Shown: piece after piece, positions 1 to 41,317 of the stretch
Numbering within the stretch: position 1 is the stretch's first letter
How the letters are laid out: every line of letters begins with the position of its first letter
DNA from: Aequorivita echinoideorum
GTDB lineage: Bacteria > Bacteroidota > Bacteroidia > Flavobacteriales > Flavobacteriaceae
DNA: 64,000 bases
NCBI RefSeq assembly: GCF_018476645.1
Contig: NZ_JAHCTB010000001.1
Span: 1-64,000, forward strand
Reading direction: 5' to 3'
The notes under the pieces: model-generated
Database searches by the model: none
The model's input: the letters and a program-made list of their open reading frames with translations, nothing else
What the model was told of the DNA's origin: nothing
Translations under genes and position numbers: made by a program

Positions 1-11
1 CTAACGGTCAA

Positions 12-120
12 GTATAACCGCAGTTACGGGCAAGTTAGCGAAAATTTTCGGTATGGAACTGACGTTAGCAATTCCGAGTGGATTCGGACGTAGTCGAATC
101 CGCCGTAATTGCGGTTATAC
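12..120 (-). repeat. 109-bp cloverleaf-forming attC-like element
   Basis: The outer stem pairs 12-29 with 103-120: 18 bp with one G-T wobble on the plus strand. Three hairpins fill the interior. Arm A is 80-86/95-101 (7 bp). Arm B is 55-61/69-75 (6 of 7 bp) with a seven-base loop. Arm C is the perfect 12-bp palindrome at 39-50, extendable with one mismatch to 36-53. The loop of arm B (cgttag, 63-68) is the complement of ctaacg at 1-6, just outside the stem, so a pseudoknot is possible. The stop codon of the cassette ORF lies inside the outer stem. It could be a recombination site, an RNA structure, or both. Confidence 0.6.
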
Positions 121-561
121 ATTGTTACCCAACGTTTTTTCTTTCCGTTCAATATGGTGAAATTCTTGAGTTTCTTCCTTTTCCGATTTATATTCTTTTT
201 CGTCTGTTAAAATCCAAGAGTTTAAATTCAGATATAGTTCAGTAATTCCTTTCGTTCGAGACTTCTTTTTTCCAGCAGTAAATTCAACTTTAAATTCCGC
301 CTTTACTTTTGCCTCTTTAATAAATTCCGTTTCGATATTGTGCTTTTTTAAATCGTCCGCAAACCATTCCGAAATTTCATAAAACATATTAAAGTCAGTT
401 TTCGATTCCGCATTGTTGAGTTTTTGAGTTCTATTCAGGAAATCAAATTCAATAATTCCACTTTCCAATTCAACCAAAGATTTCATATCGTTCACTATTT
501 TCCAACCAGCGAACATATCGCAAAAAATGTCAGCATTATGTTGTAGTCTTTTCCTTCTCAT
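115..561 (-). CDS. Hypothetical cassette-encoded protein (148 aa)
   Basis: Small, charged, Lys/Glu-rich protein with no recognised family, signal peptide or membrane segment. The start is ATG at 561 with no Shine-Dalgarno, as is usual in Bacteroidota. The last codons cover the inverted repeat GTTGGGTAAC, and the stop lies in the outer stem of the adjoining folded element, so the reading frame fits the cassette boundary closely. No promoter is evident in the short upstream region; expression may depend on transcription from the recombinase side. The function is unknown, and cassette cargo is typically adaptive or of unknown role. Confidence 0.6.
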   Translation of the reverse strand: MRRKRLQHNADIFCDMFAGWKIVNDMKSLVELESGIIEFDFLNRTQKLNNAESKTDFNMFYEISEWFADDLKKHNIETEFIKEAKVKAEFKVEFTAGKKKSRTKGITELYLNLNSWILTDEKEYKSEKEETQEFHHIERKEKTLGNNV

Positions 562-577
562 TATTGTTTGGTCAAAT

Positions 578-587
578 GTTGGGTAAC
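578..587. repeat. 10-bp inverted repeat GTTGGGTAAC bounding the cassette ORF
   Basis: GTTGGGTAAC at 578-587 is the exact reverse complement of GTTACCCAAC at 124-133; the match extends to 11 bp with one more flanking base. The two copies sit just outside the start codon and over the last codons of the cassette ORF. Both fit the loose integron core patterns (GTTRRRY and RYYYAAC). They may be recombinase-binding or crossover boxes. The region 588-638 towards the recombinase also holds two direct copies of cgtatata (591-598 and 613-620), possibly part of an attI-like site. Confidence 0.5.
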
Positions 588-638
588 ATGCGTATATAAA
601 ACCTAAACGTGACGTATATATTGCACATGTACACCATG

Positions 639-1769
639 CTAGGTCGGTTTATCCGTTTCAAATGTAACCGTTTCATACAACGTATCCAAGGGACTTTTCA
701 AAGTTTTGTTGCTTATCCCCAAAACACGCGTGTACACTTCCGTAGTCTTGGTACTGCTGTGGCCCAGTGCGCTCTGTATGTACCGTATATTCACCCCACG
801 CTGCATTAGGTGGGTGGCAAAGCTATGGCGCAGGGTATGCGGCGTACTCCACGGGTTGCCTTGGGTTGCCTTTACCGCTTTTCTATAAATGCGCTGTATG
901 CTCTGGGCCGTATACTGCCCACCGTCCTGCCCCTCAAACAGCCAGTAGCTGGGTTTGTACGCCTTGTAGTACGCCCGAAGCAACTTTAATAGCATATCGC
1001 TAAGCACGGTGTGCCTATCCTTTTTTCCCTTACTGTCCTTTATAAATATGTACCCATCTGTACTGCGGATGTCCGTTACCCGAAGCCGCACCACTTCGCC
1101 CACCCGCAGCCCAGCCCCGTAAATAGCGTGCAGTATGGCCTTGTGCTTTAGGTTGGTGGGGTGGTTTATTATTTTTCGCACCTCATCCTCGCTCAGTACA
1201 TTGGGCAGATCCTTACTTTTTGTGGGGCGCGTTATACTGTAATATTCCCGCGGGAGTTCCAGTGTATGCTCATAATAGCACTTTATGGCGTTAATAAGCT
1301 GGTTCTGTTTCTGTTCGCTTATTTTGTATTTGGTTATCAGGTAATATACAAAACCCTCTATCTGCTCCTTGGTCACCTTACGCAGGTCTGCCGTTTCAAA
1401 ATACCTGAAAAACTGCTTCAGGTTGCTTTCGTAATTCTTTATGGTGGCAGCGCTGAAACCTTTGAGCATCATTTTCTGGTGGTTGCGGTCTAGCTCCGCC
1501 TGTATTTTTTCTGAAACTGTAAACTCCGGAACCGTTGTGGAGCCTTCGGTTTCTTCGATTATAAGCAGGTCCTTGAAAATTTTTTTTACTTCTGAAATGT
1601 TGCTGGGCACATTGGGAAGGCTCCATAGCTTTTGGTTATAATGGTAAAAGGATCCGGGCAGCTTCTTGAAAATCTCCCGCTCCCTTTTCATTGAGTAGGG
1701 TATATGGAATTTTACCCGCCCACTATTGTTAAGGGGTTTGTACATTATAATATGAGTATCTTTATTCAT
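639..1769 (-). CDS. Tyrosine site-specific recombinase (integron-integrase-like)
   Basis: Member of the lambda-integrase/XerCD superfamily, which cuts and rejoins DNA through a 3'-phosphotyrosine intermediate. Numbered from ATG at 1769 (376 aa): a beta-rich N-terminal module at about 15-65, a SAM-like core-binding domain at about 85-175, and a catalytic domain from about 185. Catalytic residues visible are R222 (GAGLRVGEV), a Lys near 247-249, H311-x-x-R314 (HTLRH), H337 (GHSS) and Y346 (TEVYTR). The motif insertion typical of class 1 IntI is not evident. A TTG at 1832 would add 21 residues; ATG is preferred. It lies 51 bp before the cassette, in the same orientation, and is not in a chromosomal xer context. 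Confidence 0.85.
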   Translation of the reverse strand: MNKDTHIIMYKPLNNSGRVKFHIPYSMKREREIFKKLPGSFYHYNQKLWSLPNVPSNISEVKKIFKDLLIIEETEGSTTVPEFTVSEKIQAELDRNHQKMMLKGFSAATIKNYESNLKQFFRYFETADLRKVTKEQIEGFVYYLITKYKISEQKQNQLINAIKCYYEHTLELPREYYSITRPTKSKDLPNVLSEDEVRKIINHPTNLKHKAILHAIYGAGLRVGEVVRLRVTDIRSTDGYIFIKDSKGKKDRHTVLSDMLLKLLRAYYKAYKPSYWLFEGQDGGQYTAQSIQRIYRKAVKATQGNPWSTPHTLRHSFATHLMQRGVNIRYIQSALGHSSTKTTEVYTRVLGISNKTLKSPLDTLYETVTFETDKPT

Positions 1770-1867
1770 AGAGGGCTGAGGAATCTCGATTTTTATTCTT
1801 TTAAGTAAAAGAATAGTATCAAAACTAACCAACCAAAGCGCAAAAAGCCAAGTGCAAATGAGTATAA

Positions 1868-1920
1868 ATGAATATAACCGTTAAGAACGGATATAGTATA
1901 TTTATTGATTATACTATTGG
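1868..1920. promoter_or_regulatory. Divergent control region with two short inverted repeats
   Basis: Between the recombinase and the divergent zinc-finger gene lie ccgtt-aag-aacgg (1878-1890) and atagtata-N9-tatactat (1893-1900/1910-1917). Such palindromes between divergent genes are typical operators, and the zinc-finger protein would be a natural candidate ligand. That link is inference; no footprint or known operator consensus is matched. Confidence 0.35.
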
Positions 1921-1924
1921 AGTC

Positions 1925-2278
1925 ATGGAAAAAACTTGCAAGATTTGCGCAAAACCCCTCAAGGGCAGAACAGATAAAATTTTCTGCTCGGCACACTGCA
2001 AAAATCAATACCATAAGTACGTGCGCTATGCCTCAAAAACCGCCGCAATTGAAATAAATGGCTACCTAAAGCGCAATTACGCCATTTTATGGGAGCTTCT
2101 GGGGACTAACAAAACCCAGGTTAAAGTGTACCGAAACATATTGGAAAAGAAAAAGTTCCGTTTTAAATACCACACCCATTTCCACATCAACTCCAGCAAC
2201 AAAACCTTTTTCTATGTGTACGACCTTGCCTGGATGGAATTTTCTGATGATGAAATCTTGATTGTGCGGAAGCGGTAA
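1925..2278 (+). CDS. Small zinc-finger protein (117 aa)
   Basis: Starts at ATG 1925, where the conserved-looking part begins. An in-frame ATG at 1868 would run through the palindromic control region and is less likely. The N-terminus carries a compact four-cysteine knuckle, Cys-x2-Cys, twelve residues, then Cys-x3-Cys (residues 5, 8, 21, 25), followed by a basic helical region and a hydrophobic/aromatic C-terminal part. It could bind DNA or RNA. It lies head-to-head with the recombinase, which suggests a regulator or accessory factor of the cassette system, but no family is recognised with certainty. Confidence 0.7.
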   Translation: MEKTCKICAKPLKGRTDKIFCSAHCKNQYHKYVRYASKTAAIEINGYLKRNYAILWELLGTNKTQVKVYRNILEKKKFRFKYHTHFHINSSNKTFFYVYDLAWMEFSDDEILIVRKR

Positions 2279-2314
2279 TACACAATGCCTTCAAACTTAT
2301 AAAATACAATCATC

Positions 2315-3055
2315 TCAAACAACCAGGATCCCAGCCCCACCCCTAGCTTGCGATTTATATAATCGATCGGGCAACTTTTGGTAATATTGAATTTTTACCG
2401 CCCCAAACACTTCACATCCTTGCTCCGGCTTCCCAGCAGGTTCAAACACCAACTCACGCGCTTCTTCCCCGGCTTCAAACATCACATTTTCTGTACTGGG
2501 CGTAAAATGAAAAATATTATCCTTTAAATTATAGGCCAAAACCGCATATTCAAAGCCTACATGCGTTGTGCCTTTCGGAAATTTAAGTCGTTTCAGGTCA
2601 AAGGCAATGGCATAAAGCGTTCCGGTCTCCTTGTCCAAGTTCAGTACCGGCCCCAGTACATCCCTACTCTTCATACCAAGTGTAAATTCAAATTCCCTTA
2701 AAATTTTTCGGCCCATATCGCAACATAGTCCTGCGCCAACCGTGCGTTCGCCCACGGGTGCCTCATCAAGCGTTTTTAGCTGCATAAAGAGTTTCATCAA
2801 CCTGCGGTGCCGCGTGCCGTCCTTCAAATCATGGAGCATAGGGGCCAAGGCTTCCTTAAAACTCCTATTAAAACTGCTACAGAGCGCCAGCTCCTTATTA
2901 CTGTTTCGCACCCCTTGCATATTCGGATTATTTTTAATACTTTCGGAGGTAAATCCACCGCCAGCCTTGCGTTGGCGCTGTTCGCCATCCTGTATATAGT
3001 AGTTGATGCCGTTGTATGTTCCCTTAATGGGCAGTAAACTATGTTTTGAAGCCAT
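2315..3055 (-). CDS. Hypothetical protein (246 aa)
   Basis: Soluble protein with no signal peptide, starting at a clear ATG. The N-terminal third is basic with Gly/Asn-rich segments; the middle is helical (about 65-100); the C-terminal half looks beta-rich with several aromatic strands. No catalytic motif is recognised. Its composition and Bacteroidota-like codon use resemble the neighbours, so it is probably a real gene. It converges on the zinc-finger gene with a gap of 36 bp and may belong to the same accessory segment. Function unknown. Confidence 0.6.
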   Translation of the reverse strand: MASKHSLLPIKGTYNGINYYIQDGEQRQRKAGGGFTSESIKNNPNMQGVRNSNKELALCSSFNRSFKEALAPMLHDLKDGTRHRRLMKLFMQLKTLDEAPVGERTVGAGLCCDMGRKILREFEFTLGMKSRDVLGPVLNLDKETGTLYAIAFDLKRLKFPKGTTHVGFEYAVLAYNLKDNIFHFTPSTENVMFEAGEEARELVFEPAGKPEQGCEVFGAVKIQYYQKLPDRLYKSQARGGAGILVV

Positions 3056-3120
3056 AACCAGTTGGTTTTAAGTGGATAGAAGGCCGAAAAGTAAAACAAT
3101 CCTCCCAATTTTCCAAATCC

Positions 3121-3175
3121 GTATGCCGACTGTATGCCGATGGTATGTCGACGCTATGCCGTTGGTATGCCGTAG
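3121..3175. repeat. Five 11-bp imperfect tandem repeats (GTATGCCGA-NN)
   Basis: Five consecutive units, each starting g/c-tatg-c/t-cg, run from 3121 with an exact 11-bp period; the last two positions vary. One unit per DNA turn would put the same motif on one helical face, as in iterons or protein-binding arrays. The GC-rich core stands out from the AT-rich surroundings. Confidence 0.75.
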
Positions 3176-3323
3176 ATACTTATAGGATACTCCCACTATC
3201 CTCCCAGTTTCCCTCTACCTAGCTCCCAACTAGGTACCAGATAACCACCACATTGTTTTCCGAAAATGATATAAATCCCTAACAAATCCCCAAGATAATT
3301 GGGGTCCATCTGCAACAAGTGGT

Positions 3324-3354
3324 TTTGTTAACCCGAATATTATCAATAGCTTTA
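3324..3354 (+). promoter_or_regulatory. Candidate Bacteroidota promoter of the beta-propeller gene
   Basis: TTTG at 3324-3327, a 19-base spacer, then TAGCTTTA at 3347-3354, matching the -33/-7 consensus TTTG and TAnnTTTG at all but the last position. It ends 26 bp before the ATG at 3381. Confidence 0.5.
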
Positions 3355-3380
3355 TAAGCATAACCTCAAAATAAAAAACG

Positions 3381-5141
3381 ATGAAAAAAAGATTGTTACT
3401 TCTTTCCACAGTAATTCTTGGCTTCTTGCCGGCTGTAGAAGCCCAACAAATGGGTAAAAAGGCATCCCTGAATGAAGATGGCACCATCTCGGTAGAGACA
3501 GCATTATTGCCTGCAAGCGAAACAAACCCCGGCAGGACCCAAGTTGCGGATTTAATTTTTAAATATGGTCAACCGGCACATCCCAACTTCAAGAATACAA
3601 GAGGAACAACCCTTGCAGATCTTGATGGAGATGGCGTGGATGAAATTCTTTATGGTATATGGAACACACTTTACGCCATTAAAGGGGATGGCACCCTCCT
3701 TTGGGAAAAGGATGTAAGCGGTACCATTACACTTCCACCCACGGCTATGGATATGGATGGGGACGGTATGGTAGAAATTGTACTCAACACGGGCGGAGTG
3801 CCCAATGCAGGCCGCGTCTATTTAATGGATAATAATGGCGATGACCTTCCCGGATGGCCCCTTAATTTTATGGAACACTGGATGATCAACGCGCCCGCCG
3901 TGGCAGATGTGGATGATGACGGAAATCTTGATATCGTAACGGGCGAAAGGGTCACTTCGACCCAAGGTTTTATACACGCCTTAAAAATGGACGGGACGCC
4001 CATCAACGCAAACTGGCCCGTAGAGATTGCCGCCACCCCGGCCTTTACGCCCTCCATTGCAGATGTGGATAACGATGGCAATACAGATGTGGTCATCGCG
4101 GCTTCCTCTGGAGGTATGTATATCTTCGATAATCAAGGCCAGGTTTTCCCCGGATTTCCCGTGGTAGATGCCAATGTAAAGTATTCGTACCAATCTCCTA
4201 TTTTGGCTGATCTGGATGGCGATGAGGATTTAGAAATTATTGGGAGCAATCATGGCGACGCCCCCGGTTTTTACGTCATGGAACACGACGGTTCATATAA
4301 GGCAGGTTGGCCTATTGCCACCGCAGGATGGACGTACTCTCCTCCTACTGTGCTGGACGTGGATGAAGATGGAACGTTCGAGATTTATATGTCAGATAGA
4401 ATTACGAGCAACGATGGCAGTCCACTGCCCACTGTTTATGGCCTAACGCCAGATGGCAACAATCTACCGGATTTCCCCATTGAAAAGTACGGCGGTACCG
4501 AAGGTGTTCTTTCCATCGCAGATGTTAATGATGATGGGGTGTTGGAAATTATCTTCCCAAGCATTATGACAGATGCTGATGGAGATGGCTACATACATGC
4601 GTACTCTTTGGACGGAAGCGGCGAGGTGGATGGCTTCCCCCTACGCCCCAGAGGGTTTACATTTTTGAACGGAGCCGTATTGGGAGATGTGGATAATGAC
4701 GGTATGCTGGACCTTACCGCAAACAGTTACACGCAATTGTTTGGCGCTGGGGTAGATTCCACATTTGTGAATGTGTACAACCTCAACGTACCGTACAATC
4801 CCGCAACCATTAAAAGAAATGGCTACAAAGGGGACAACAGTCGCGATGGTTTTGTGGAGGTAGAGGATGTTCTGGGAATTGCCGATAACGCTTCAGGAAT
4901 GAATATTATGGTGAGCCCAAATCCTTCAGAGGGAATATTGAACCTTTCGGTCTCTTCAAACCTTGAAAATGCTACCTTAAAAATGTACAGCACTGATGGG
5001 AAATTGGTTTTTTCTGAAGAAAGAAATTTCGCCGTAAATGCTTCCAGCACGTATGATTTCAAGAATCTAACGGCCGGACTATACTTCATTCAAATCTCAA
5101 ATGGAAATAGCACCCTAACGGCCAAATGGCTGAAACAATAA
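3381..5141 (+). CDS. Secreted FG-GAP/VCBS beta-propeller protein with T9SS sorting domain
   Basis: 586 aa. Signal peptide at 1-21 ending in AQQ. The body carries at least eight Asp-rich calcium-binding motifs of the form DxDxDGxx(D/E) at roughly 50-residue spacing (first at about 80-88), each followed by a hydrophobic strand, which is the signature of an FG-GAP/VCBS seven- or eight-bladed propeller. Residues 509-586, beginning with SPNPSEG, form a type A C-terminal sorting domain of the type IX secretion system. The product is expected to be exported, then released or anchored on the cell surface, with an adhesive or binding role rather than a visible enzymatic one. Monocistronic, with its own promoter and terminator. 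Confidence 0.9.
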   Translation: MKKRLLLLSTVILGFLPAVEAQQMGKKASLNEDGTISVETALLPASETNPGRTQVADLIFKYGQPAHPNFKNTRGTTLADLDGDGVDEILYGIWNTLYAIKGDGTLLWEKDVSGTITLPPTAMDMDGDGMVEIVLNTGGVPNAGRVYLMDNNGDDLPGWPLNFMEHWMINAPAVADVDDDGNLDIVTGERVTSTQGFIHALKMDGTPINANWPVEIAATPAFTPSIADVDNDGNTDVVIAASSGGMYIFDNQGQVFPGFPVVDANVKYSYQSPILADLDGDEDLEIIGSNHGDAPGFYVMEHDGSYKAGWPIATAGWTYSPPTVLDVDEDGTFEIYMSDRITSNDGSPLPTVYGLTPDGNNLPDFPIEKYGGTEGVLSIADVNDDGVLEIIFPSIMTDADGDGYIHAYSLDGSGEVDGFPLRPRGFTFLNGAVLGDVDNDGMLDLTANSYTQLFGAGVDSTFVNVYNLNVPYNPATIKRNGYKGDNSRDGFVEVEDVLGIADNASGMNIMVSPNPSEGILNLSVSSNLENATLKMYSTDGKLVFSEERNFAVNASSTYDFKNLTAGLYFIQISNGNSTLTAKWLKQ

Positions 5142-12978: not shown

Positions 12979-15051
12979 TTATCGGATGCCGTGCATCAAC
13001 TTTTTCAACATTGGGTTCAATAGCATAATTAAAACCCCAGCCACCACTGGCACTATGGTAAATATCAGGAAAAATGTTGAAAGATCATACTTGGCCGTAA
13101 TATTTTCAATTTGTCCACCAAGTACTGCAGCCAACTTATTTCCAATAGCAATGGCAAGATACCACATACCGAACATAAACGCAATCATACGCGCCGGTAC
13201 CAATTTTGAAACGTACGAGAGTCCCACCGGTGAGAGGCAAAGCTCCCCAAGGGTATGGAACATATAGGCCAAAATCAACCAAATCATGCTCACCTTCACG
13301 CCATCCTGAATTCCGTAGGAGCCCCACGCCAAAAGACCAAAACCAATTGCCATGATTATTAATCCAAGACCATATTTTACAGCGGCTGAAGGATTGTATT
13401 TACTTTCCCACCATTTTGAGAAGAAGGAAGCAAAGGCAATAATAAAGAAAGAGTTGAGGATACTGAACCACGAAACGGTGATCTCCACTTCATCGCTCTT
13501 TATTTCAGAAATTGTGGCGGGCACAACTCCATTATCCCTTTCTGATATTGCAGAATTATTTCTAGCCGTAGTCAAACGTTCCTCGTCCAAATAACCATAA
13601 CTACTCCCTTCATTATCCTTGCTTATCATAAAAATCTCGTCTCCTACCTTTAAATCGTATGGCTCCGTTATTTTGGTAGTTCTTTCAACCACGACATCTG
13701 TATCGGTAACCAAATAATTTTCAGAAATGGGAATATAGCTCACTGTTGTTTCGCCTTCGTCATTGGTAACCGATTTTTCAATAGCTCTATAGGAAACATC
13801 GTACGCGGTAGTGTTCATATCCCTATTGAGCATCCAGCCTACAATTCCCCACATCAAAGCAAAACATACTACCAAAACAATGTTTGAACCGGGAATTTTA
13901 TAGAACGTTTTTTTCCAAAGTAAATAAAGAACGTATGAAATAATACCGAGCGGGATTACAGTAAGCAACACATTTACAATATTGAATATCACGGCTTGAT
14001 TTCCACTTAATACCCTATTCACATTATCCCTTGCAAAAATGATAAGTGAAGTAGCACCTTGCTCAAAACTCATCCAGAAGAAAACGGTAAAAAATGCAAA
14101 TACCACAAAGGCAATCATTCTATCACGAATGATGGGCGCGTATCTTACAATTCGCCCTATAACCAGAATCAAGAACAAAAACAGCGCTATGAGTATGGCA
14201 ACGTACTGCCCTTCCATACTGCCCATTTGCAATACTGAAAACATATCGATTCCCGCAATTTTTGAAAGCGGATCGTTGAGTGCATATCCCAATCCCACAA
14301 GGGAACAGATAATGATCAAAATTTTATCCAGTTGCGTAAACGGATTCAGTTTGTTTACTTCTTCCTCTTCTTTTGTTTGGTTCACTTTTACCTCAACTTT
14401 ATCCTGCTCGTTGGGTGTTCCGCCAATCTTTCCAAACAAAGGCTTCGCCAACCAAAACTGCAGCGTACCCAATAACATGAAAATGCCCGCAAGACCAAAG
14501 CCCCAAGACCACCCAATTCTTTCAGCCAAATACCCGCAAAGCATCATCCCAAAAAAGGCACCTGCATTTACTCCCATATAAAATAGGGTGAAAGCTCCAT
14601 CCTTTTTTTGTTCGTTGCCTTTGTACATTTCAGAAATAATGGAAGTAATATTGGGTTTGAAGAATCCTGTACCAATTACTAGAAGCGCGAGACCCAAGTA
14701 TAGCGAAAACTCGGTTTCAATAGCCATGGCGGCGTGGCCAAGCGTCATTATGAACGCCCCTATTACCACGGCCCAACGGTAGCCGGTAAATTTATCTGCA
14801 ATTACCCCTCCTATGATTGGGGTAATGTAAAGAAGCATGGCATACGTCCCAAACAGTGCCCCAGCATTTTCAGCAGACCACTCCCAACCGGGATTGTAGC
14901 CAATGGCAGCCATGGTAAGGAAATTAATCAAAAGAACACGCATCCCATAAAATGAGAAACGCTCCCACATTTCAGTAAAAAAGAGTACGAAGAGTCCTCC
15001 CGGATGCCCTAAAACTTTGTCCTTAAATAGATTTTCTATATCTGTATTCAT
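12979..15051 (-). CDS. POT-family peptide transporter with extra extracytoplasmic domain
   Basis: Proton-coupled di/tripeptide importer (PTR2/POT, major facilitator superfamily). The proton-coupling motif E27-x-x-E30-R31 is in helix 1, FYMGVNAG in helix 5 and a GELCLSPVG motif in helix 10. At 690 aa it is about 220 residues longer than its neighbour. The additional sequence at about 345-522, between the FEQ-bearing helix 7 and the SWFSILN helix 8, adds two membrane helices (354-379, 390-408) and a hydrophilic domain of about 110 residues predicted on the periplasmic side. Adjacent to a second POT gene and a dipeptidyl peptidase. Confidence 0.9.
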   Translation of the reverse strand: MNTDIENLFKDKVLGHPGGLFVLFFTEMWERFSFYGMRVLLINFLTMAAIGYNPGWEWSAENAGALFGTYAMLLYITPIIGGVIADKFTGYRWAVVIGAFIMTLGHAAMAIETEFSLYLGLALLVIGTGFFKPNITSIISEMYKGNEQKKDGAFTLFYMGVNAGAFFGMMLCGYLAERIGWSWGFGLAGIFMLLGTLQFWLAKPLFGKIGGTPNEQDKVEVKVNQTKEEEEVNKLNPFTQLDKILIIICSLVGLGYALNDPLSKIAGIDMFSVLQMGSMEGQYVAILIALFLFLILVIGRIVRYAPIIRDRMIAFVVFAFFTVFFWMSFEQGATSLIIFARDNVNRVLSGNQAVIFNIVNVLLTVIPLGIISYVLYLLWKKTFYKIPGSNIVLVVCFALMWGIVGWMLNRDMNTTAYDVSYRAIEKSVTNDEGETTVSYIPISENYLVTDTDVVVERTTKITEPYDLKVGDEIFMISKDNEGSSYGYLDEERLTTARNNSAISERDNGVVPATISEIKSDEVEITVSWFSILNSFFIIAFASFFSKWWESKYNPSAAVKYGLGLIIMAIGFGLLAWGSYGIQDGVKVSMIWLILAYMFHTLGELCLSPVGLSYVSKLVPARMIAFMFGMWYLAIAIGNKLAAVLGGQIENITAKYDLSTFFLIFTIVPVVAGVLIMLLNPMLKKLMHGIR

Positions 15052-30450: not shown

Positions 30451-30993
30451 TTATGCAGATTTACCTGCTTTTCTTCTTAATTGTTCACCCACGAACTTGA
30501 TACCTTTTCCTTTGTAAGGCTCTGGCTTGCGGAAGCTACGGATTTTTGCAGCTACTTGTCCTACCAATTGCTTGTCGTGAGATGTTAGTTTTACGATTGG
30601 ATTCTTACCTTTATCTGATACTGTTTCCACTTTTACTTCAGGAGCAATATCCAAAATAATATTATGTGAAAATCCTAATGCAAGATCCAATTTTTGTCCT
30701 TGATTGCTGGCACGGTAACCCACACCTACAAGTTCCAATTCCTTGGTCCATCCTTTGTTTACACCTTCGATCATATTATTGATCAAAGCTCTGTAAAGAC
30801 CGTGTTTTGCAATGTGGTCTTTAGAGTCTGACGGACGCTCTACCAGAACATTTCCATCTTCAACTTTTACGCTAACGTCAGAAAAATCCTGAGCCAGTTC
30901 GCCTAATTTTCCTTTCACGGTAATTACGTTGTCCTTTACATCAACTGTAACTCCTTGTGGGATTACTACCGGGTTTTTACCTATTCTTGACAT
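30451..30993 (-). CDS. rplF: 50S ribosomal protein L6 (uL6)
   Basis: 180 aa. Two tandem related beta/alpha domains (about 1-80 and 85-170) near the sarcin-ricin loop and factor-binding site; begins MSRIGKNPVVIP and ends with the family signature PEPYKGKGIKF and a basic tail. 15 bp after rpsH. Confidence 0.97.
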   Translation of the reverse strand: MSRIGKNPVVIPQGVTVDVKDNVITVKGKLGELAQDFSDVSVKVEDGNVLVERPSDSKDHIAKHGLYRALINNMIEGVNKGWTKELELVGVGYRASNQGQKLDLALGFSHNIILDIAPEVKVETVSDKGKNPIVKLTSHDKQLVGQVAAKIRSFRKPEPYKGKGIKFVGEQLRRKAGKSA

Positions 30994-31008
30994 TTCTTTG
31001 TCTATTTT

Positions 31009-31410
31009 TTAGTAAACGTAACACAATACTTCGCCACCTACATTCTGTGCTTTGGCCTGCTTGCCAGTCATTACTCCAGATGAAGTAGAGACAATAGCAA
31101 TGCCTAAACCGTTCAAAACACGAGGAAGATCAGATGAACCTGCATATTTACGTAAACCTGGTTTACTTATTCTTTGAATTTTCTTGATTACCGATTCTTT
31201 GGTAAGCTTGTCATATTTCAACGCGATTTTGATGATACCTTGTGGGGTACTCTCATCGTCAAATTTGTAGCTTAAGATGTAACCTTGATCAAAAAGGATT
31301 TTTGTGATTTCCTTTTTAAGATTTGAAGCTGGAATCTCTACAACGCGATGTCCGGCTTTGGCAGCGTTTCTAACTCGCGTTAGATAATCTGAAATTGGAT
31401 CTGTATTCAT
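31009..31410 (-). CDS. rpsH: 30S ribosomal protein S8 (uS8)
   Basis: 133 aa. Central-domain 16S rRNA binder; begins MNTDPISDYLTRVRNA and ends with STSSGVMTGKQAKAQNVGGE and CYVY, the conserved C-terminal RNA-binding motif. In E. coli S8 represses its own operon by binding near rplE; no copy of that site is identified here. Separated from rpsN by 98 bp. Confidence 0.97.
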   Translation of the reverse strand: MNTDPISDYLTRVRNAAKAGHRVVEIPASNLKKEITKILFDQGYILSYKFDDESTPQGIIKIALKYDKLTKESVIKKIQRISKPGLRKYAGSSDLPRVLNGLGIAIVSTSSGVMTGKQAKAQNVGGEVLCYVY

Positions 31411-31440
31411 TTATTTGAATTTGCGGATGTGGTTTTCAAA

Positions 31441-31457
31441 CTCCCACAATCTGGGAG
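31441..31457. repeat. Small hairpin in the rpsN-rpsH spacer
   Basis: ctccca (31441-31446) pairs with tgggag (31452-31457) around a five-base loop, inside the 98-bp spacer 31411-31508. A short GC-rich hairpin in an otherwise AT-rich gap; no T-run follows on the transcribed strand. Confidence 0.45.
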
Positions 31458-31508
31458 CCCGAACCTTCAACCAATTAATACTATTTATTTTGAACAGAAA
31501 AACTGTTC

Positions 31509-31778
31509 TTACCAAGATGCTTTGCGCACTCCTGGAATTAACCCTGAATTTGCCATTTCACGGAACAATACGCGTGAAATACCAAAAGTTCTCATATACC
31601 CTCTTGGTCTTCCGGTAAGTTTGCAACGGTTGTGCAGACGTACGGGAGAGGCATTTTTTGGTAATTTTTGTAGACCTTCCCAATCTCCAGCTTCTTTCAA
31701 AGCTTTACGTTTGGCAGCATACTTCAATACCGTTTTTTGTCTCTTAACCTCGCGGGCCTTCATTGATTCTTTAGCCAT
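31509..31778 (-). CDS. rpsN: 30S ribosomal protein S14 (uS14), zinc-free form
   Basis: 89 aa. The zinc-independent S14: the CxxC pairs of the short 61-aa type are absent and the [27 protein letters not shown] core is of the longer type. Head protein near the A site. 3 bp after rplE. Confidence 0.97.
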
Positions 31779-31781
31779 CTC

Positions 31782-32333
31782 TTAGTTCTTTTTAAAGGGT
31801 AATCCCAATTCCTGTAATAGTGATTTTGCTTCCTTATCGGTATTTGCAGTGGTAATAAACGTAATGTTCATCCCTTCAATTTTCTTCACTTTATCGATAT
31901 CGATTTCTGGGAAGATAATTTGCTCGGTAATTCCCAAAGAGTAGTTTCCCCTTCCGTCAAAACCGGTTGCTTTAATACCGTTGAAGTCACGTACTCGTGG
32001 CAGTGCAGATGTAATCAAGCGGTCCAAAAATTCATACATACGCTCTCCACGCAACGTAACTTTCACGCCAATCGGCATTCCTTTACGAAGTTTGAAGTTT
32101 GCAACGTCTTTTTTGGACATTGTTGGAACTGCTTTCTGCCCGGTTATTTTTCCAAACTCTTCAACAGAATAGTCTATAAGTTTTTTGTCTGCAACAGCTG
32201 CGCCCACACCGCGGGAAACAACAATGCGCTCCAATTTTGGTACCTGCATAACGTTTTTGTAACCAAACTCGTCTGTAAGTGAATTGATCACTCTGCTTTT
32301 GTACTCTTCTTTAAGTCTAGGTGTATAAGCCAT
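31782..32333 (-). CDS. rplE: 50S ribosomal protein L5 (uL5)
   Basis: 183 aa. Part of the 5S rRNP in the central protuberance, contacting P-site tRNA and S13. Begins [11 protein letters not shown], with conserved [15 protein letters not shown] and RDFNGI segments. 2 bp after rplX. Confidence 0.97.
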
Positions 32334-32335
32334 AA

Positions 32336-32650
32336 CTATATTGCTTGATTGGATTGTTTTGAAAACCGTACTTTCTTTCCATTTTCCATTTTATAACCTA
32401 CACGTGTGGGTTTTCCAGATTTTGGGTCTACCAATGAAAGGTTTGAAATATGGATGGGAGCTTCTTTTTTAGCGATTCCGCCCTGTGGGTTTTTTGCGCT
32501 TGGCTTCTCGTGTTTTGAAACCATATTTACTCCCTCTACGATTGCTTTGTTTTTGTCAAGGAATACTTTCATTACTTTGCCTTCAGAGCCTTTGTGCTCT
32601 CCGGCAGTAACTACTACTGTATCGCCTGATTTTATTTTAAGCTTTGCCAT
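32336..32650 (-). CDS. rplX: 50S ribosomal protein L24 (uL24)
   Basis: 104 aa from ATG 32650 ([10 protein letters not shown]); a possible upstream ATG at 32662 adds only MKTK. Assembly initiator at the peptide exit tunnel, with the KOW motif [14 protein letters not shown] near the N-terminus. 13 bp after rplN using this start. Confidence 0.95.
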
Positions 32651-32663
32651 TTTAGTTTTCATA

Positions 32664-33032
32664 TTAAAGCACCTCTGGCGCCAATGATACTATTTTCATA
32701 AATTGTTTATCACGAAGCTCTCTTGCTACCGGTCCAAACACGCGTGTTCCCCTCATTTCGCCTTGGGCGTTCAAAAGTACACAAGCGTTATCGTCAAAAC
32801 GGATGTAAGAACCGTCCGGTCTTCTTATCTCTTTCACGGTACGTACTACAACTGCTGTAGAAACTGCTCCTTTTTTAATGTTTCCATTAGGCGTGGCTTC
32901 TTTTACAGAAACTACAATCTTATCACCAATAGAAGCATATCTTCTTTTTGTTCCGCCCAATACACGGATGGTAAGTACTTCCTTAGCACCGGTATTGTCT
33001 GCGACTCTGAGTCTTGATTCTTGTTGTAACAT
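32664..33032 (-). CDS. rplN: 50S ribosomal protein L14 (uL14)
   Basis: 122 aa. Forms an intersubunit bridge and is the docking site of the silencing factor RsfS. Begins [18 protein letters not shown] and contains [15 protein letters not shown] and the [13 protein letters not shown] signature. 2 bp after rpsQ. Confidence 0.97.
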
Positions 33033-33034
33033 AA

Positions 33035-33298
33035 TTACTTCGCTCTTTCAATTATTTCTACTAATCTCCAACATTTGGTTTTGCTTAAGGGGCGTGTTTC
33101 CATAATCCTTACCGTATCGCCTTCGTTGCAGTTGTTTGTCTCGTCGTGCGCAACATACTTTTTGGTTTTTGTCACGAACTTTCCGTACATAGGGTGTTTT
33201 ACTTTTTTAACCTCGCTAACCACAATGGACTTATCCATTTTGTTACTGGTTACTACGCCTATACGTTCTTTTCTTAAATTTCTTTTGATTTCTTCCAT
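33035..33298 (-). CDS. rpsQ: 30S ribosomal protein S17 (uS17)
   Basis: 87 aa OB-fold protein that binds 16S rRNA early in assembly. [16 protein letters not shown] opening and the conserved [19 protein letters not shown] end are present. 15 bp after rpmC. Confidence 0.97.
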
Positions 33299-33313
33299 CT
33301 TTCAGCTGTACAA

Positions 33314-33505
33314 TTATTGCACTTCTCTATTAGTTAGTTCCGTCGCTATTCTTGCTATCACCCTTCTTTGGGTTCTAAGTTGAATTGGATTTTCCAAAGG
33401 CGAAATAGTATGCGCCATTTTAAGATCTGTAAAAGCTTTTTTTGATTCAGCAAATGCTTCCTGAAGTTCAGCCGTAGATGCGTTTTTAATTTCTGATTGT
33501 TTCAT
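33314..33505 (-). CDS. rpmC: 50S ribosomal protein L29 (uL29)
   Basis: 63 aa two-helix protein at the tunnel exit, part of the docking site for trigger factor and SRP. MKQSEIKNASTAELQE opening and the ENPIQLRTQRRVIARI helix are typical. 11 bp after rplP. Confidence 0.96.
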   Translation of the reverse strand: MKQSEIKNASTAELQEAFAESKKAFTDLKMAHTISPLENPIQLRTQRRVIARIATELTNREVQ

Positions 33506-33516
33506 CTTTCAAAAAA

Positions 33517-33936
33517 TTATGCTTGGAAATCCCGAGACATTACAAATTTAGTTTTTACCGGAAGCTTTTGTGCTGCAAGGCGTAACGCTTCTTTAGCAGT
33601 TTCAACTGGAACGCCAGATACTTCGAAAAGCATTCTTCCCGGCTTTACCACAGCAGCATAATATTCAACGGCACCTTTTCCTTTACCCATACGTACCTCA
33701 AGAGGTTTTTTGGTGATGGGCTTATCTGGAAAAATCATGATCCAGATAGAACCTTCCCTTTTCATATAACGGGTAGCGGCAATACGCGCTGCTTCAATTT
33801 GTCTTGCTGTAAGAAATTCTGAGTCCAACGATTTAATACCGAAGGTTCCGTATGCCAACTGGTTGCCTCTTTCGGCATTACCCTTCATACGGCCTTTCAT
33901 TTGCTTGCGGTACTTTGTTCTTTTAGGTTGTAACAT
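33517..33936 (-). CDS. rplP: 50S ribosomal protein L16 (uL16)
   Basis: 139 aa. Contacts A-site tRNA and organises the peptidyl-transferase region. [19 protein letters not shown] opening, RMGKGKG segment and C-terminal KLPVKTKFV are all canonical. 20 bp after rpsC. Confidence 0.97.
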
Positions 33937-33956
33937 TTTTTCTTCTTTTTAAAAAA

Positions 33957-34691
33957 TTACTTTCTGCGACGTGCTTTGTTGCCACCACGTCCTCCAGCCG
34001 GAGCACCTTTTCCACCGCTCTTGGTTTTTCCGGTCGAAAGACCTACTAACGGGGAAAGCTCTCGCTTGCCATAAACTTCACCTTTCATAATCCATACTTT
34101 AACACCCAATCTACCGTAGGTAGTGTGTGCCTCAACTAAAGCGTAGTCAATGTCGGCTCTAAAAGTTGATAATGGGATACGACCTTCTTTATAGGATTCT
34201 GAACGCGCCATTTCAGCTCCGTTCAAACGTCCGGAAATCATAACTTTAATACCTTCAGCATTCATACGCATAGTCGCGGCAATAGCCATTTTTATAGCGC
34301 GACGGTATGAGATACGGCTTTCAATCTGGCGCGCAATACTAGCAGCTACCAAATATGCATCAAGCTCAGGTCTTTTGATCTCGTGAATGTTGATCTGTAC
34401 CTCTTTATCTGTAATTTTCTTAAGCTCTTCTTTTAGCTTGTCTACTTCCTGTCCACCTTTACCGATAATAATACCGGGACGGGCAGTGGTTATAGTAACG
34501 GTTACAAGCTTAAGCGTACGCTCAATAATTACTCTACTCACACTAGCTTTGCTTAAACGGGCATGAATGTATTTTCTAATCTTGTCGTCTTCGGCAAGTT
34601 TGTCACCGTAGTCGTTACCTCCGTACCAGTTGGATTCCCAACCTCTAATGATACCTAGGCGATTCCCGATTGGATTTGTCTTTTGTCCCAT
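33957..34691 (-). CDS. rpsC: 30S ribosomal protein S3 (uS3)
   Basis: 244 aa. Head protein at the mRNA entry channel with helicase activity. Type 2 KH domain at about 40-110 with [15 protein letters not shown]3 C-terminal domain follows (about 120-200). The last about 30 residues are a Gly/Lys/Arg-rich tail ([18 protein letters not shown]). 3 bp after rplV. Confidence 0.97.
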
Positions 34692-34694
34692 TTA

Positions 34695-35105
34695 TTAATT
34701 GCTTTGTGTGTTATCGTTAGCTGCCAATACCAGTGTTACGTGGTTGGAGCGCTTTCTTATTCTGTGTGCACGGCCTTGTGGCGCTGGGCGAAGTCTTTTC
34801 AACATTGTGCCACCGTCCACACGGATTTCCTTTACAAAAAGATCTGCATCTTCAACTGAAGCATCTTCATTTTTTTGTTGCCAGTTATTTATGGCAGACA
34901 AAAGTAGTTTCTCCAATTTACGTGAAGATTCCTTTGAACTAAACTTCAGAATATTAAGTGCTTTGTCTATTTTCTCACCACGCACCAAGTCTGCCATTAA
35001 ACGCATTTTTCTTGGCGAGGTGGGGCAATTGTTCAGTTTAGCCATGTAAGTAGTCTTCTTGGCTTCCTTGATTGCTTCTGCTCTTTCTCTTTTACGAACT
35101 CCCAT
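34695..35105 (-). CDS. rplV: 50S ribosomal protein L22 (uL22)
   Basis: 136 aa. Lines the peptide exit tunnel with its beta-hairpin ([20 protein letters not shown] region), a site of macrolide resistance in other bacteria that looks wild type here. About 20 extra charged residues ([17 protein letters not shown]) precede the usual start MAKLNN; an internal ATG at residue 21 is an alternative start. 6 bp after rpsS. Confidence 0.96.
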
Positions 35106-35111
35106 GGCCTA

Positions 35112-35390
35112 TTATTTTTTTCCTTTATTTTTAGCACCCGAATGACCACGGAATGATCTTGTAGGTGAAAATTCTCCAAGTTTGTGCCCAACCATGTTTT
35201 CTGTTACATACACAGGAACAAATTGACGCCCATTGTGCACAGCGATGGTTTGGCCAACAAAATCTGGAGTAATCATTGAAGCACGTGACCAAGTTTTGAT
35301 TACGGTCTTCTTATTATCCTCAACATTTTGTTGAACTTTTTTGTCTAGTTTATAATGAACGAACGGTCCTTTTTTTAACGATCTTGCCAT
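35112..35390 (-). CDS. rpsS: 30S ribosomal protein S19 (uS19)
   Basis: 92 aa. Head protein that bridges to the large subunit with S13. [19 protein letters not shown] opening and [15 protein letters not shown] signature present. 3 bp after rplB. Confidence 0.97.
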
Positions 35391-35393
35391 AAC

Positions 35394-36218
35394 TTATTTC
35401 TTTCTTCGTTCTAAGATATATTTATTACTTGCTTTCGTTTTAGAACGGGTTCTGTAACCTTTAGCAGGAATACCTTTTCTAGAACGTGGATGACCTCCCG
35501 AAGCGCGGCCCTCGCCACCACCCATTGGGTGATCAACAGGGTTCATAACTACTGGTCTTGTGCGTGGTCTTCTTCCTAACCATCTGCTTCTACCAGCCTT
35601 ACCAGATACCAACAATTGGTGGTCACTGTTTGAAACAGCACCAATAGTTGCCATACAGTTTACCAAAATCAATCGGGTTTCACCTGAAGGAAGTTTTACG
35701 GTAGCATATTTTCCATCACGCGCCATAAGCTGAGCGAAAGCACCAGCACTACGCGCCATAATAGCCCCTTGACCGGGACGAAGCTCGATACAAGAAATAA
35801 TAGTACCTAATGGAATAGCTGAAAGCGGCATTGCATTTCCAATTTCTGGAGCAACCGCCTCACCTGAAACGATGTTCTGATCAACTTGAAGTCCGTTTTG
35901 AGCAATTACATATCGCTTCTCACCATCTTGATAGTTTAAAAGTGCGATAAACGCTGTACGGTTAGGATCGTATTGAATACTGGCAACAGTAGCAGGAATT
36001 CCAGCCTTGTCACGCTTAAAATCGATAATTCGATATTTCTTTTTATGACCACCACCTATGTAGCGCATGGTCATTTTACCTTGACTGTTTCTACCTCCAG
36101 ATTTTCTATTCGGAGCAAGTAACGACTTCTCCGGCTTATCGGTTGTAATGGCGTCAAAACCATTTACAACCCTAAAACGCTGACCTGGGGTGATTGGTTT
36201 TAATTTTCTTACTGACAT
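35394..36218 (-). CDS. rplB: 50S ribosomal protein L2 (uL2)
   Basis: 274 aa. Needed for subunit association and peptidyl-transferase function. RNA-binding OB-like domain (about 40-120) and C-terminal domain with the [14 protein letters not shown] signature holding the conserved His (about 226-239). 26 bp after rplW. Confidence 0.97.
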
Positions 36219-36244
36219 TTGTGTCTAATTAAATCTAAGAACTC

Positions 36245-36535
36245 TTAGATGTTATTGTAAAAATCTATTGTATCACCTTCCGCCACCTGTACGATTGCTT
36301 TTTTGTAAGCATTCGTTTTACCAGTTTGGACACCTGTTTTTGTATAACGGGTTTTCCTATCAGGGCGGACATTCATTGTGCGAACTTTTTCTACAGAAAC
36401 TCCATAAGTGGTTTCAACCGCTTTTTTGATTTCTACCTTATTCGCCTTAGGGTTCACTACAAAGCCAAAAACGTTTTTATCTTCAGCATCCTTGGTAGCT
36501 TTTTCCGTAATTATAGGTTTAATTAAGATGTTCAT
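36245..36535 (-). CDS. rplW: 50S ribosomal protein L23 (uL23)
   Basis: 96 aa. Tunnel-exit protein and main docking site for trigger factor and SRP. MNILIKPIITEKATKDAE opening and VNPKANKVEIKKAVE segment are typical. 7 bp after rplD. Confidence 0.97.
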   Translation of the reverse strand: MNILIKPIITEKATKDAEDKNVFGFVVNPKANKVEIKKAVETTYGVSVEKVRTMNVRPDRKTRYTKTGVQTGKTNAYKKAIVQVAEGDTIDFYNNI

Positions 36536-36542
36536 CTTGTTT

Positions 36543-37172
36543 CTATTTACTTAAGTTTGTTTGAATTCCTTCCAAAGAACCTTCAAACAGCACTACACTG
36601 TTTGCATTCATAATTTTATAAGTACTTAATTGCGAGTTAGTTATAACTTCAGTACCCTTCAAATTGCGAGAGGACAAATATACATTATTATTTAAGTCTC
36701 CCAACACAAATAAAGATTTTTTGTCATTAAGTCCTAAACTATTCAAAACCGCCGTAAAATTCTTGGTTTTTGGAGCGTCAAAATTCAGGTCTTCCATTAC
36801 AAAAATGGCTTTATCATTCGCCTTCATCGATAGGGCAGATTTACGTGCCAAACGCTTCAGGTTTTTGTTCAATTTGAAGGAGTAGTTACGCGGACGAGGT
36901 CCAAACATTCTACCACCACCTTTAAATACACCAGACTTGATGCTGCCCGCACGCGCAGTACCAGTTCCTTTTTGTTTCTTTATCTTTCTGGTAGAACCAG
37001 CAATCTCGGCACGTTCTTTTGCTTTGTGAGTTCCTTGACGCTGATTGGCAAGGTATTGTTTCACATCAAGATAAACCGCGTGATTGTTAGGCTCTATCCC
37101 GAACACATCTGCAGAAAGTTCAACTTTCCGACCCGTGTCTTTTCCGTTTATGTCTAATACAGCTACCTTCAT
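36543..37172 (-). CDS. rplD: 50S ribosomal protein L4 (uL4)
   Basis: 209 aa. Its extended loop ([19 protein letters not shown]) reaches the exit tunnel near L22. In E. coli it also represses the S10 operon by premature termination; whether this holds in Bacteroidota is not known from the sequence. The start codon overlaps the rplC stop by one base (TAATG), giving tight translational coupling. Confidence 0.97.
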
Positions 37173-37783
37173 TATTTCTCGATCATTACATAAGAATTTT
37201 TATGGCCGGGAACTGCTCCTTTAACCACAAGTAGATTCTTTTCAGGAACTACTTTCAAAACTCTTAAATTTTCAACTTTTACTCTTTCGTTCCCCATTTG
37301 GCCCGCCATACGCATTCCTTTGAATACTCTCGCAGGATATGATGCAGCTCCAATGGAACCTGGTGCGCGCAAACGATTGTGCTGACCGTGTGTGGACTGG
37401 CCAACACCGCCAAAACCGTGACGCTTTACAACCCCTTGGAAACCTTTACCCTTAGATGTACCCGCAATATCCACGAATTCACCTTCGATAAAATGCTCCA
37501 CAGTAATTGTGTCACCTAATTTGTAACTTTCTTCAAATCCCTTGAATTCGGCGACTTTGCGTTTTGCAACGGTTCCTGCTTTCTTGGCGTGCCCTTCGGC
37601 CGCTTTAGTTACAGTCTTCTTGTCATCGAAACCAAGTTGAAGAGCTTCGTACCCGTCAACCTCTTTGGTTCTGACTTGGGTAACAACACAGGGGCCGCAC
37701 TCGATAACGGTACACGGAATGTTCTTTCCGTTGTCGTCAAAGATGCTGGTCATCCCTATCTTTCTTCCAATTAACCCAGACAT
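37172..37783 (-). CDS. rplC: 50S ribosomal protein L3 (uL3)
   Basis: 203 aa. Early-binding 50S protein whose central extension ([20 protein letters not shown] with [17 protein letters not shown]) approaches the peptidyl-transferase centre. Begins [13 protein letters not shown]. Preceded by four ATTT/AAAT steps and a 206-bp spacer from rpsJ. Confidence 0.97.
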
Positions 37784-37989
37784 ATTTATTTATTTATTTA
37801 GAATTATGAATTTAGAATGCAGAATCCAGTTTCTACACTTCCGCCTTCGATTATTTTTATTTATTATTTCAAAAGAAACGGGATCAAAATAAATTCAATC
37901 CCGAATGTTATTTTGCTTCCGTTTTTCCACAACCATCGTTGAGGACATTTTTGCTAATTCAGAATCAAAAATTCTGAATTTTGAATTCA
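37784..37989. other. 206-bp palindrome-rich spacer splitting rpsJ from rplC
   Basis: No ORF. It contains a 10-bp perfect inverted repeat aattcagaat/attctgaatt (37956-37965/37971-37980), a second hairpin cgggat/atcccg (37879-37884/37898-37903) followed on the transcribed strand by a T-rich stretch, and (TTTA)-type tetranucleotide steps next to rplC. Such a gap is unusual inside an S10 operon and may attenuate or re-initiate transcription. Confidence 0.6.
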
Positions 37990-38295
37990 CTATACTTTGA
38001 TCTCTACCTCTACTCCGCTTGGAAGCTCCAATTTCATTAAAGCATCAATTGTTTTTGAAGAAGAACTGTAGATATCCAAGAGTCTTTTGTATGAACTCAA
38101 TTGGAATTGCTCACGGCTCTTCTTGTTTACGTGCGGAGAACGCAATACGGTAAAGATTTTTTTATGTGTTGGTAAAGGAATTGGCCCTGTAACTACAGCT
38201 CCGGTACTCTTTACGGTCTTAACGATTTTTTCAGCAGATTTGTCCACCAAATTGTGATCGTAAGATTTTAGCTTTATTCTTATTTTTTGACTCAT
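37990..38295 (-). CDS. rpsJ: 30S ribosomal protein S10 (uS10, NusE)
   Basis: 101 aa. Head protein; in complex with NusB it is also an antitermination factor. [22 protein letters not shown] opening, [28 protein letters not shown] central loop are canonical. 11 bp after fusA, so the str and S10 operons are joined here. Confidence 0.97.
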
Positions 38296-38306
38296 TGCTG
38301 AAATTA

Positions 38307-40439: not shown

Positions 40440-40442
40440 TTT

Positions 40443-40919
40443 TTAGAATCTGAAATGTGAGAATGCCTTATTAGCTTCTGCCATTTTGTGAGTATCCATA
40501 CGCTTTTTCACCGCGGCGCCTTCTTCTTTGGCAGCTGCAAGAATTTCACCGGCAAGTTTTGCCGCCATGGATTTCTCGTTTCTTTTTCTTGAATAGGTAA
40601 TCAGCCATTTCATTGCGGTCGCAATTTTACGGTCTGGGCGTATTTGCATAGGAATTTGGAAGGTTGCCCCACCAACTCTACGGCTACGCACCTCTACGTG
40701 AGGCATAATATTGGAAAGTGCATCTTTCCAAAGTTCCAATGAAGTTTTTTCATCGTTTTGCTTCTTCTCTTCCACAATGTCAATAGCATCGTAGAAAACC
40801 TTGAAAGCCACACTTTTTTTACCGTCCCACATCATGTTGTTTACAAAACGTGTAACCAACTGGTCGTTAAACCGCGGATCCGGCAACAGGGGTCTTTTTT
40901 TCGCTGCTCTTTTTCTCAT
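40443..40919 (-). CDS. rpsG: 30S ribosomal protein S7 (uS7)
   Basis: 158 aa. Nucleates the 30S head and lies at the E site. MRKRAAKKRPLLPDPRF opening and the conserved EVRSRRVGGATFQIPMQI signature are present. 23 bp after rpsL. Confidence 0.97.
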   Translation of the reverse strand: MRKRAAKKRPLLPDPRFNDQLVTRFVNNMMWDGKKSVAFKVFYDAIDIVEEKKQNDEKTSLELWKDALSNIMPHVEVRSRRVGGATFQIPMQIRPDRKIATAMKWLITYSRKRNEKSMAAKLAGEILAAAKEEGAAVKKRMDTHKMAEANKAFSHFRF

Positions 40920-40942
40920 GTCTTCTTCTTAAAGTTTTTAGA

Positions 40943-41317
40943 TTACTTCTTAGGGCGTTTTGCACCATACTTAGATCTACGTTGCGTGCGGCCTGCAACA
41001 CCTGCGGTGTCCAATGCGCCACGTACAATGTGATACCTAACTCCTGGCAAATCTTTTACCCTTCCACCTCTAACCAATACTATCGAGTGCTCTTGGAGAT
41101 TGTGACCTTCGCCCGGGATGTATGCGTTTACTTCCTTACCATTTGTAAGTCTTACCCTAGCAACTTTACGCATTGCAGAGTTAGGCTTTTTAGGCGTAGT
41201 AGTATATACACGCGTACAAACACCACGACGTTGCGGGCACGAATCCAAAGCAACCGATTTACTCTTCTTGGTTATTTTGGTTCTTCCTTTACGTACTAAT
41301 TGTGAAATTGTTGGCAT
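40943..41317 (-). CDS. rpsL: 30S ribosomal protein S12 (uS12)
   Basis: 124 aa. Decoding-centre protein. The loops that determine streptomycin response are wild type: K43 in TPKKPNSA and K88 in [10 protein letters not shown]. First gene of the whole ribosomal supercluster, behind a good Bacteroidota promoter and a hairpin at the transcript's 5' end. Confidence 0.98.

Follow-up and report, generated by a model that had tools for sequence, protein, structure and literature searches.

What is the strongly folding element that opens contig C11 of the Aequorivita echinoideorum genome, and what does it do there? The window analysed here is the whole 64,000-nucleotide stretch at the start of that contig, and the genome (2.93 Mb) is assembled in 27 contigs. 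A preliminary description had seen the element as a cloverleaf of four stems with a possible pseudoknot, lying at the end of a gene cassette, and had suggested a distinct class of folded recombination site or a structured RNA. Window positions 1–120 folded with a minimum free energy of −27.8 kcal/mol, compared with a shuffle mean of −13.2 (s.d. 2.2, z = −6.58), and none of 200 shuffles was as low. The proposed stem of 12–29 with 103–120 (18 bp, one G·T) was recovered in this fold, and one wobble pair was invariant across 37 close siblings of the site. The three inner hairpins were present near 36–53, 54–76 and 79–102, but the first two were poorly kept in the siblings, with 59.5% and 70.3% of cells paired, respectively. 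The third was paired in 100% of cells with zero variation and, because it is invariant in all siblings, is uninformative on conservation. Bases 1–6 do complement 63–68, as a pseudoknot would require, but the loop partners were changed in 6 of the 37 siblings without a compensating change, which therefore lends the pseudoknot no support. Counted over the same 37 siblings, the cloverleaf was not supported as a functional feature. An alternative three-way junction had 96.5% of cells paired and one compensatory change, a result not clearly above shuffles. The siblings carry an extra base on the L′ arm that has been lost from the window copy. The cloverleaf and pseudoknot lack conservation and are the counterpart of the terminal structure of attC sites, a region that in the account of classical sites is variable and has no apparent part in strand selectivity (PMC2727003).

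Conservation was found in the outer stem. In a seed alignment of 34 sites from the same genome and related genomes, the blocks AACA, GTATA, TATAC and GTT were invariant, and RNAalifold returned 18 pairs, 9 of them changed on both sides. The outer stem had 99 cells changed on both sides, compared with 29.2 (s.d. 4.8) in shuffles, and 0 of 500 shuffles scored as high. As judged from this alignment, the outer stem is conserved and covarying; compensatory changes had been expected in all four stems and were seen in this one only. The covariance model built from the alignment, R1, found the expected copies 3′ of different open reading frames (ORFs) in large number. At E 0.1 it had 117 matches, spread over 26 sources, and a scan of the window's own genome gave 34; at E 0.05 it had 268 matches over 100 loci, of which ten are stretches of that genome. 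One relative (G068) had 89 matches in 80 kb, on one strand throughout, and another (G014) had 55 in 60 kb, a count that includes two opposite-strand echoes and the two halves of one cut site. Among 80 loci, 43 matches fell in 11, all of them 3′ of the recombinase and on its strand, and one marginal match lay elsewhere (L172). The element was also present at other contig ends of its own genome, as expected of a repeat that breaks the assembly; the contigs apparently broken by the array are C1, C2, C3, C5, C7, C8, C11, C20, C23, C25 and C26. One partial site (G000:C25:77859-77921, L011) has its outer arm interrupted by other sequence. A second size class of about 190–200 bases, with a long inner inverted repeat, was seen at L008 (3261-3455 and 4518-4717), at L009 (2992-3189) and at other places.

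Table 1 Features of the window locus
Feature	Position	Strand	Evidence or remark
attC-like cassette recombination site	1..133	−	Fold, alignment, covariance model (102.9 bits), duplication
Parts of the attC-like site	R″ 124-133; stem arms 103-120 and 12-29; variable interior 30-102	−	
R′ of the window site	Crossover G^TT at 5/4	−	
First gene cassette (582 bp), closed by the window attC	5..586	−	Duplicate on contig C5
Cassette ORF, 148 aa, stop codon inside attC	115..561	−	
Cassette start, GTTACCCAAC, including the G before the crossover	578..587	−	Complements R″ 124-133
attI-like site, separating the recombinase stop codon from the first cassette	585..623	−	Resembles a short attC without R″
Tyrosine recombinase, 397 aa, 3′ end toward the array	639..1832	−	Start codon uncertain
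Small zinc-finger gene, divergent from the recombinase	1925..2278	+	

The layout of the locus (Table 1) resembles that of an integron. Along the minus strand, the recombinase gene (1832-639) comes first; a stretch of about 50 bases follows, which contains an attI-like site, and then a cassette (586-5) and the closing element. Because the genes are on the minus strand, the fold described initially is that of the 'bottom' strand of the site. The boundaries needed correction: the site reaches about position 133 (R″), and bases 1–4 belong to the next cassette. The R″–L″–L′–R′ layout, the variable terminal structure, the G^TT crossover and an attI next to the recombinase are shared with classical integrons, whereas the recombinase gene of this system is directed toward the array, unlike in the classical arrangement. 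The 148-residue product of the cassette ORF matched neither Pfam nor NCBIfam models at E 0.001. The zinc-finger protein is treble-clef-like, with its best Pfam match under the cut-off. Its gene adjoins the recombinase in 26 platforms, as read from coordinates, and many genomes have a second, distant copy; the gene may be part of the platform, possibly as a regulator or accessory factor.

Duplications mark the boundaries of the mobile unit. The first window cassette also occurs on contig C5, behind another cassette, and the two copies are identical over 587 bases. They part at ...CGCATG^TTACCC in the window, where the neighbour is attI, and at ...GGACCG^TTACCC on C5, where the neighbour is an attC. 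This duplicated cassette gives boundaries at G^TT and places the element at the end of a gene cassette, as originally proposed. A duplicated platform was seen in a relative, genome G159: two of its recombinase loci have identical sequence from a point 124 bases ahead of the recombinase match to the end of attI and part directly behind GTT.

An integron cassette starts with bases that are the complement of the R″ box close to the end of that same cassette. We compared the bases behind the GTT of each site with those before the AAC of the next, scoring complementary runs of at least five bases counted beyond the GTT. In a first set (106 of the 117 matches remained once duplicates, short pieces and opposite-strand echoes had been removed, and 7 of these were then dropped for want of recognisable boxes), 64 of 79 adjacent pairs had at least five complementary bases, compared with 7% of 99 same-site and 2.2% of 8828 between-locus comparisons. 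A second set from other loci (the best 150 of the 268 matches, with own-genome loci left out and 2 dropped) gave 71 of 90 adjacent pairs; the controls were 6 of 139 same-site comparisons, 32 of 1276 non-adjacent comparisons within one array and 525 of 17656 between loci. It is possible that missed sites, decay or rearrangement account for the pairs below five bases (15 of 79 and 19 of 90). Boundaries at G^TT with complementarity to the cassette's own end are thus found here as in classical integrons, from which the system differs in that the complementary ends extend to about 10 bases with the GTT. These ends also bear on the alternative that the element is a structured RNA at gene ends, such as a terminator, riboswitch or attenuator. 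Such an RNA could have a stable fold, a conserved stem and a position at ORF ends, but the outer flank switches exactly at G^TT between copies, the ends are matched within each cassette, and an Rfam search of window positions 1–5000 returned no match up to E 1. The positions and the complementarity of adjacent ends fit a DNA cassette boundary, and we regard an RNA as extremely improbable.

As in classical integrons, the cassettes lie in tandem, mostly carry single genes and share one orientation. The longest ORF of 105 intervals was co-oriented with the site in 96 and against it in 1, and 8 had none of at least 50 residues; these intervals come from a regular-expression site finder that misses sites and include three near-identical short cassettes with doubtful ORFs. 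The median stop codon lay 10–12 bases before R″ in four of five sets. The cassette proteins are diverse, with each listed Pfam family matching one protein, both among 49 proteins from one array (one short ORF left out), which include a KAP NTPase, Imm7, an HNH protein and a thioesterase, and among 35 from two other genomes, which include WapI and a short-chain dehydrogenase. Seventeen defence models were matched in the 49-protein set. Near-identical sites occurring many times per genome would be explained by a passive repeat of the REP or MITE kind whose arrays arose through homologous recombination, but neither cassette-specific complementary ends nor ORF co-orientation nor exact G^TT joins would be expected of such a repeat, and we consider this reading very unlikely. 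Four similar GC-rich cassettes of about 220 bases had no convincing gene (L010, 3002-3219, 4928-5151 and 5268-5489; and one on the minus strand of L009).

In classical attC sites, two or three extrahelical bases are described on the R″–L″ arm, and the first of them determines which strand is chosen (PMC2727003). Of 267 aligned matches here, 200 had two recognisable arms, and these yielded 84 distinct stems. As in classical sites, R″/R′ and L″/L′ are complementary arms. Unlike in classical sites, most stems had no extrahelical base on the R″–L″ arm: 67 scored best unbulged, 12 did so with a single bulge in the L′ arm, and in 5 the bulge was in the L″ arm, with four of those five being probable anchoring errors. 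Instead, the stems have A·C mismatches on the top (cassette) strand, which are G·T wobble pairs on the bottom strand. Position 7 was A·C on the cassette strand in 54 of the 67 unbulged stems, and position 12 in 63, with 150 A·C or C·A cells overall versus 8 G·T or T·G. The bottom strand was the better folder in 234 of 256 distinct sites, and in 240 of 256 when the arms alone were folded.

The attI site is found beside the integrase gene, as in classical integrons. Directly 3′ of the recombinase stop codon, 16 of 21 loci had an inverted repeat that is short and imperfect, of the form GATATAACTGCAAT...GTTATACAATTG^TTG and fitting TATA..TG^TT, three of them loosely, as judged by eye; three more had a variant ending in ATAG^TT, one was unlike these and one was cut by a contig end. 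An attI-like site thus lay directly behind the gene in 19 of the 21 loci. Among 24 named loci, attI was clear in 5, all flavobacterial (L149, L151, L153, L154 and L160). In a further difference from the classical system, attI here looks like a short attC without R″.

The window recombinase is a tyrosine recombinase with a Xer-like catalytic domain, an extra N-terminal region of about 110 residues and no I2 insert, the IntI-specific domain of classical integrases. Its best solved matches were 4a8e (listed as XerC-like, 131 bits) and XerA 5hxy. The catalytic domain and lack of I2 are as in XerA, XerC and XerD, which, unlike the enzyme here, lack a cassette array, an attI directly 3′, attC-like sites and the extra N-terminal region. 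The NCBIfam model NF040815 ('site-specific tyrosine recombinase/integron integrase') scored 195 bits, below its cut-off of 220. The alignment with IntI4 was split in two, since the window protein lacks the roughly 43 residues that make up the I2 region. Among the proteins in which the spacing of the catalytic motifs was measurable (several were not), it was 58–63 residues in 30 grouped recombinases, 56–67 in other non-IntI enzymes and 100–105 in ten classical IntI. Six residues (R243, K268, H332, R335, H358 and Y367) were invariant in 19 homologues, and we take them to be catalytic. The N-terminal regions of 9 proteins had no Pfam match over the cut-off, the best being DUF5710 (E 0.0024, in one distant member); the region may resemble HARP-type modules. 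By eye, this region seems to carry repeated W...KxWxxP-like units at six loci (L145, L147, L150, L155, L159 and L163). Three proteins of 675–718 residues (L174, L180 and L184) apparently have two tandem recombinase domains, the first degenerate, also by eye. Acinetobacter plasmid tyrosine recombinases, and one called TnpF, had about 49% identity to the window protein over 245 residues among the listed matches. At G000:C20:366249-368068 (L124), a single weak attC-like match was seen about 1 kb away from a second recombinase of Xer-like type.

In a tree of 95 proteins, IntI formed a clade of 16 rows (support 100), and the Bacteroidota enzymes formed a separate clade of 45 rows (support 98). The grouped set of 30 in this tree is made up of 24 loci that have R1 matches plus 6 relatives that have none (L045, L046, L052, L055, L058 and L062); in these six, the contig stops no more than about 1 kb 3′ of the gene. 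The separate clades raised the possibility of an origin independent of IntI, yet an approximately unbiased (AU) test did not reject IntI and the Bacteroidota group as one clade (p = 0.27, two long rows left out), and we therefore do not claim convergence.

An IntI with I2 encoded elsewhere might serve an ordinary classical array, with the Xer-like gene as a bystander. The R″ and R′ boxes and the G^TT crossover are those of classical attC sites, and a flavobacterial phage site is reported to work with IntI1 (PMC9892861). However, TIGR02249, which matched the window recombinase in two pieces under the cut-off, exceeded that cut-off in all 6 classical control genomes but not once among 60 family genomes, that of the window being one of them, nor among 3 named Bacteroidota; moreover, the sites are 3′ of the I2-less gene, with the attI-like site directly behind it. 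We consider a classical integron served from elsewhere unlikely.

Cassette boundaries, attI, co-oriented ORFs and the G^TT-joined duplications of cassette and platform can be read from the sequence. On this basis, we put at roughly 90% the probability that the window element is an attC-type site of an integron with a neighbouring I2-less recombinase, an attI and a G^TT crossover. The recombinase next to the array would excise cassettes (attC × attC), and excised cassettes would enter attI just behind the recombinase's own stop codon, with the crossover at G^TT. We infer, by analogy with classical integrons, that the substrate would be the folded bottom strand of the site (the window plus strand). 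Strand identity would probably be read from the top-strand A·C mismatches, that is, the bottom-strand G·T wobbles, and not from extrahelical bases. The I2-less enzyme would perform the reaction, perhaps aided by its N-terminal region; linkage and orientation point to the product of this adjacent gene as the actor, in preference to XerCD or a recombinase supplied in trans. Some results speak against this reading. Of 299 family genomes, in each of which at most 11 candidates were scored, R1 was positive in 263, more than the 190 that had the recombinase at the profile threshold of E 1e-75. The adjacent pairs with fewer than five complementary bases, the failure of the phage site attC1 with IntI1 and the Chryseobacterium plasmid lacking an R1 match count against it too.

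By sequence criteria, the system is an integron in layout and natural history and is outside the classical family by the defining enzyme feature. The suggestion of a distinct class of folded recombination site is borne out by the many copies behind different ORFs, the end complementarity and the covariation, but the cloverleaf and pseudoknot are not what sets it apart; the class is set apart by a recombinase without I2 and outside the IntI clade, a stem marked by mismatches and wobbles, and the attI layout. R1 was also positive in 97 of 296 genomes of a phylum-wide draw, 75 of them outside the family, and in 0 of 12 control genomes of other phyla, which were reached through loci, most with classical-type IntI. 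Named loci with matches include Winogradskyella, Seonamhaeicola, Algibacter, Flavobacterium, Aquiflexum, Rufibacter (matches of about 68 bases), Alkalitalea and others. We think it fairly probable that Bacteroidota have a second kind of integron, in which an I2-less recombinase acts on a folded single-stranded attC and tells the strands apart by top-strand mismatches and bottom-strand G·T wobbles, perhaps through its N-terminal region; such a system could be a parallel invention or a relic from before I2.

Published surveys select IntI by the additional domain I2 (PMC2426708, PMC9668308), and one proposal is that the gain of I2 brought about the recombination of cassettes as single strands (PMC7790495). 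Because integron searches commonly go through I2, a large cassette system without it would, if real, explain the apparent rarity of integrons in Bacteroidota. IntegronFinder 2 is reported to have found one complete Bacteroidetes integron beyond the In0 elements known before, in Salinibacter ruber (PMC9024848), and the eleven taxon-specific attC models described in another study include none from Bacteroidota (PMC8352920); a review counts Bacteroidota among integron carriers (PMC8618304). Bearing against novelty, a tyrosine recombinase survey describes the insert as 'not fully conserved' in its integron-like subgroup (PMC8138268). The public annotation of one recombinase relative already reads 'site-specific tyrosine recombinase/integron integrase'. 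A literature search that covered few subscription journals and preprints found no paper on a flavobacterial integron platform. The system would also reveal a reservoir of mobile genes, some with defence-model matches, and would make the origin of integrons testable with living relatives.

Sites of this family also have matches in a phage and a plasmid. BLAST of the window site against phages and plasmids gave no match, whereas the covariance model matched one phage and one plasmid; a pattern of the window recombinase, which fits close relatives only, had no match in viral contigs. The phage is Polaribacter phage P12002L, in which a screen of phage genomes had reported attC sites (PMC9892861). 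As described there, class 1 IntI1 recombined its attC2 with attI1 on the bottom strand, with no top-strand recombinants given; a second site of the phage, attC1, was also assayed with IntI1 and did not work (PMC9892861). The P12002L record (L226) had 11 R1 matches at E 0.1 and 8 at 1e-5, and attC2 may be one of them. The phage array (a CALIN) shares R1 matches with the system here and differs from it in that the account of the array describes no recombinase or host platform (PMC9892861). The presence of site matches in this lytic phage suggests that cassettes move between host and phage. The matches lie at 30905-40952 and 14499-14629, around methyltransferase, Mom-like and small genes, and two compact sites flank a methyltransferase gene. 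Of two Chryseobacterium plasmids with a recombinase relative, one (L225) had no R1 match, and that of Chryseobacterium sp. SNU WT5 (L224, 8956-17655) had four site matches 3′ of the gene.
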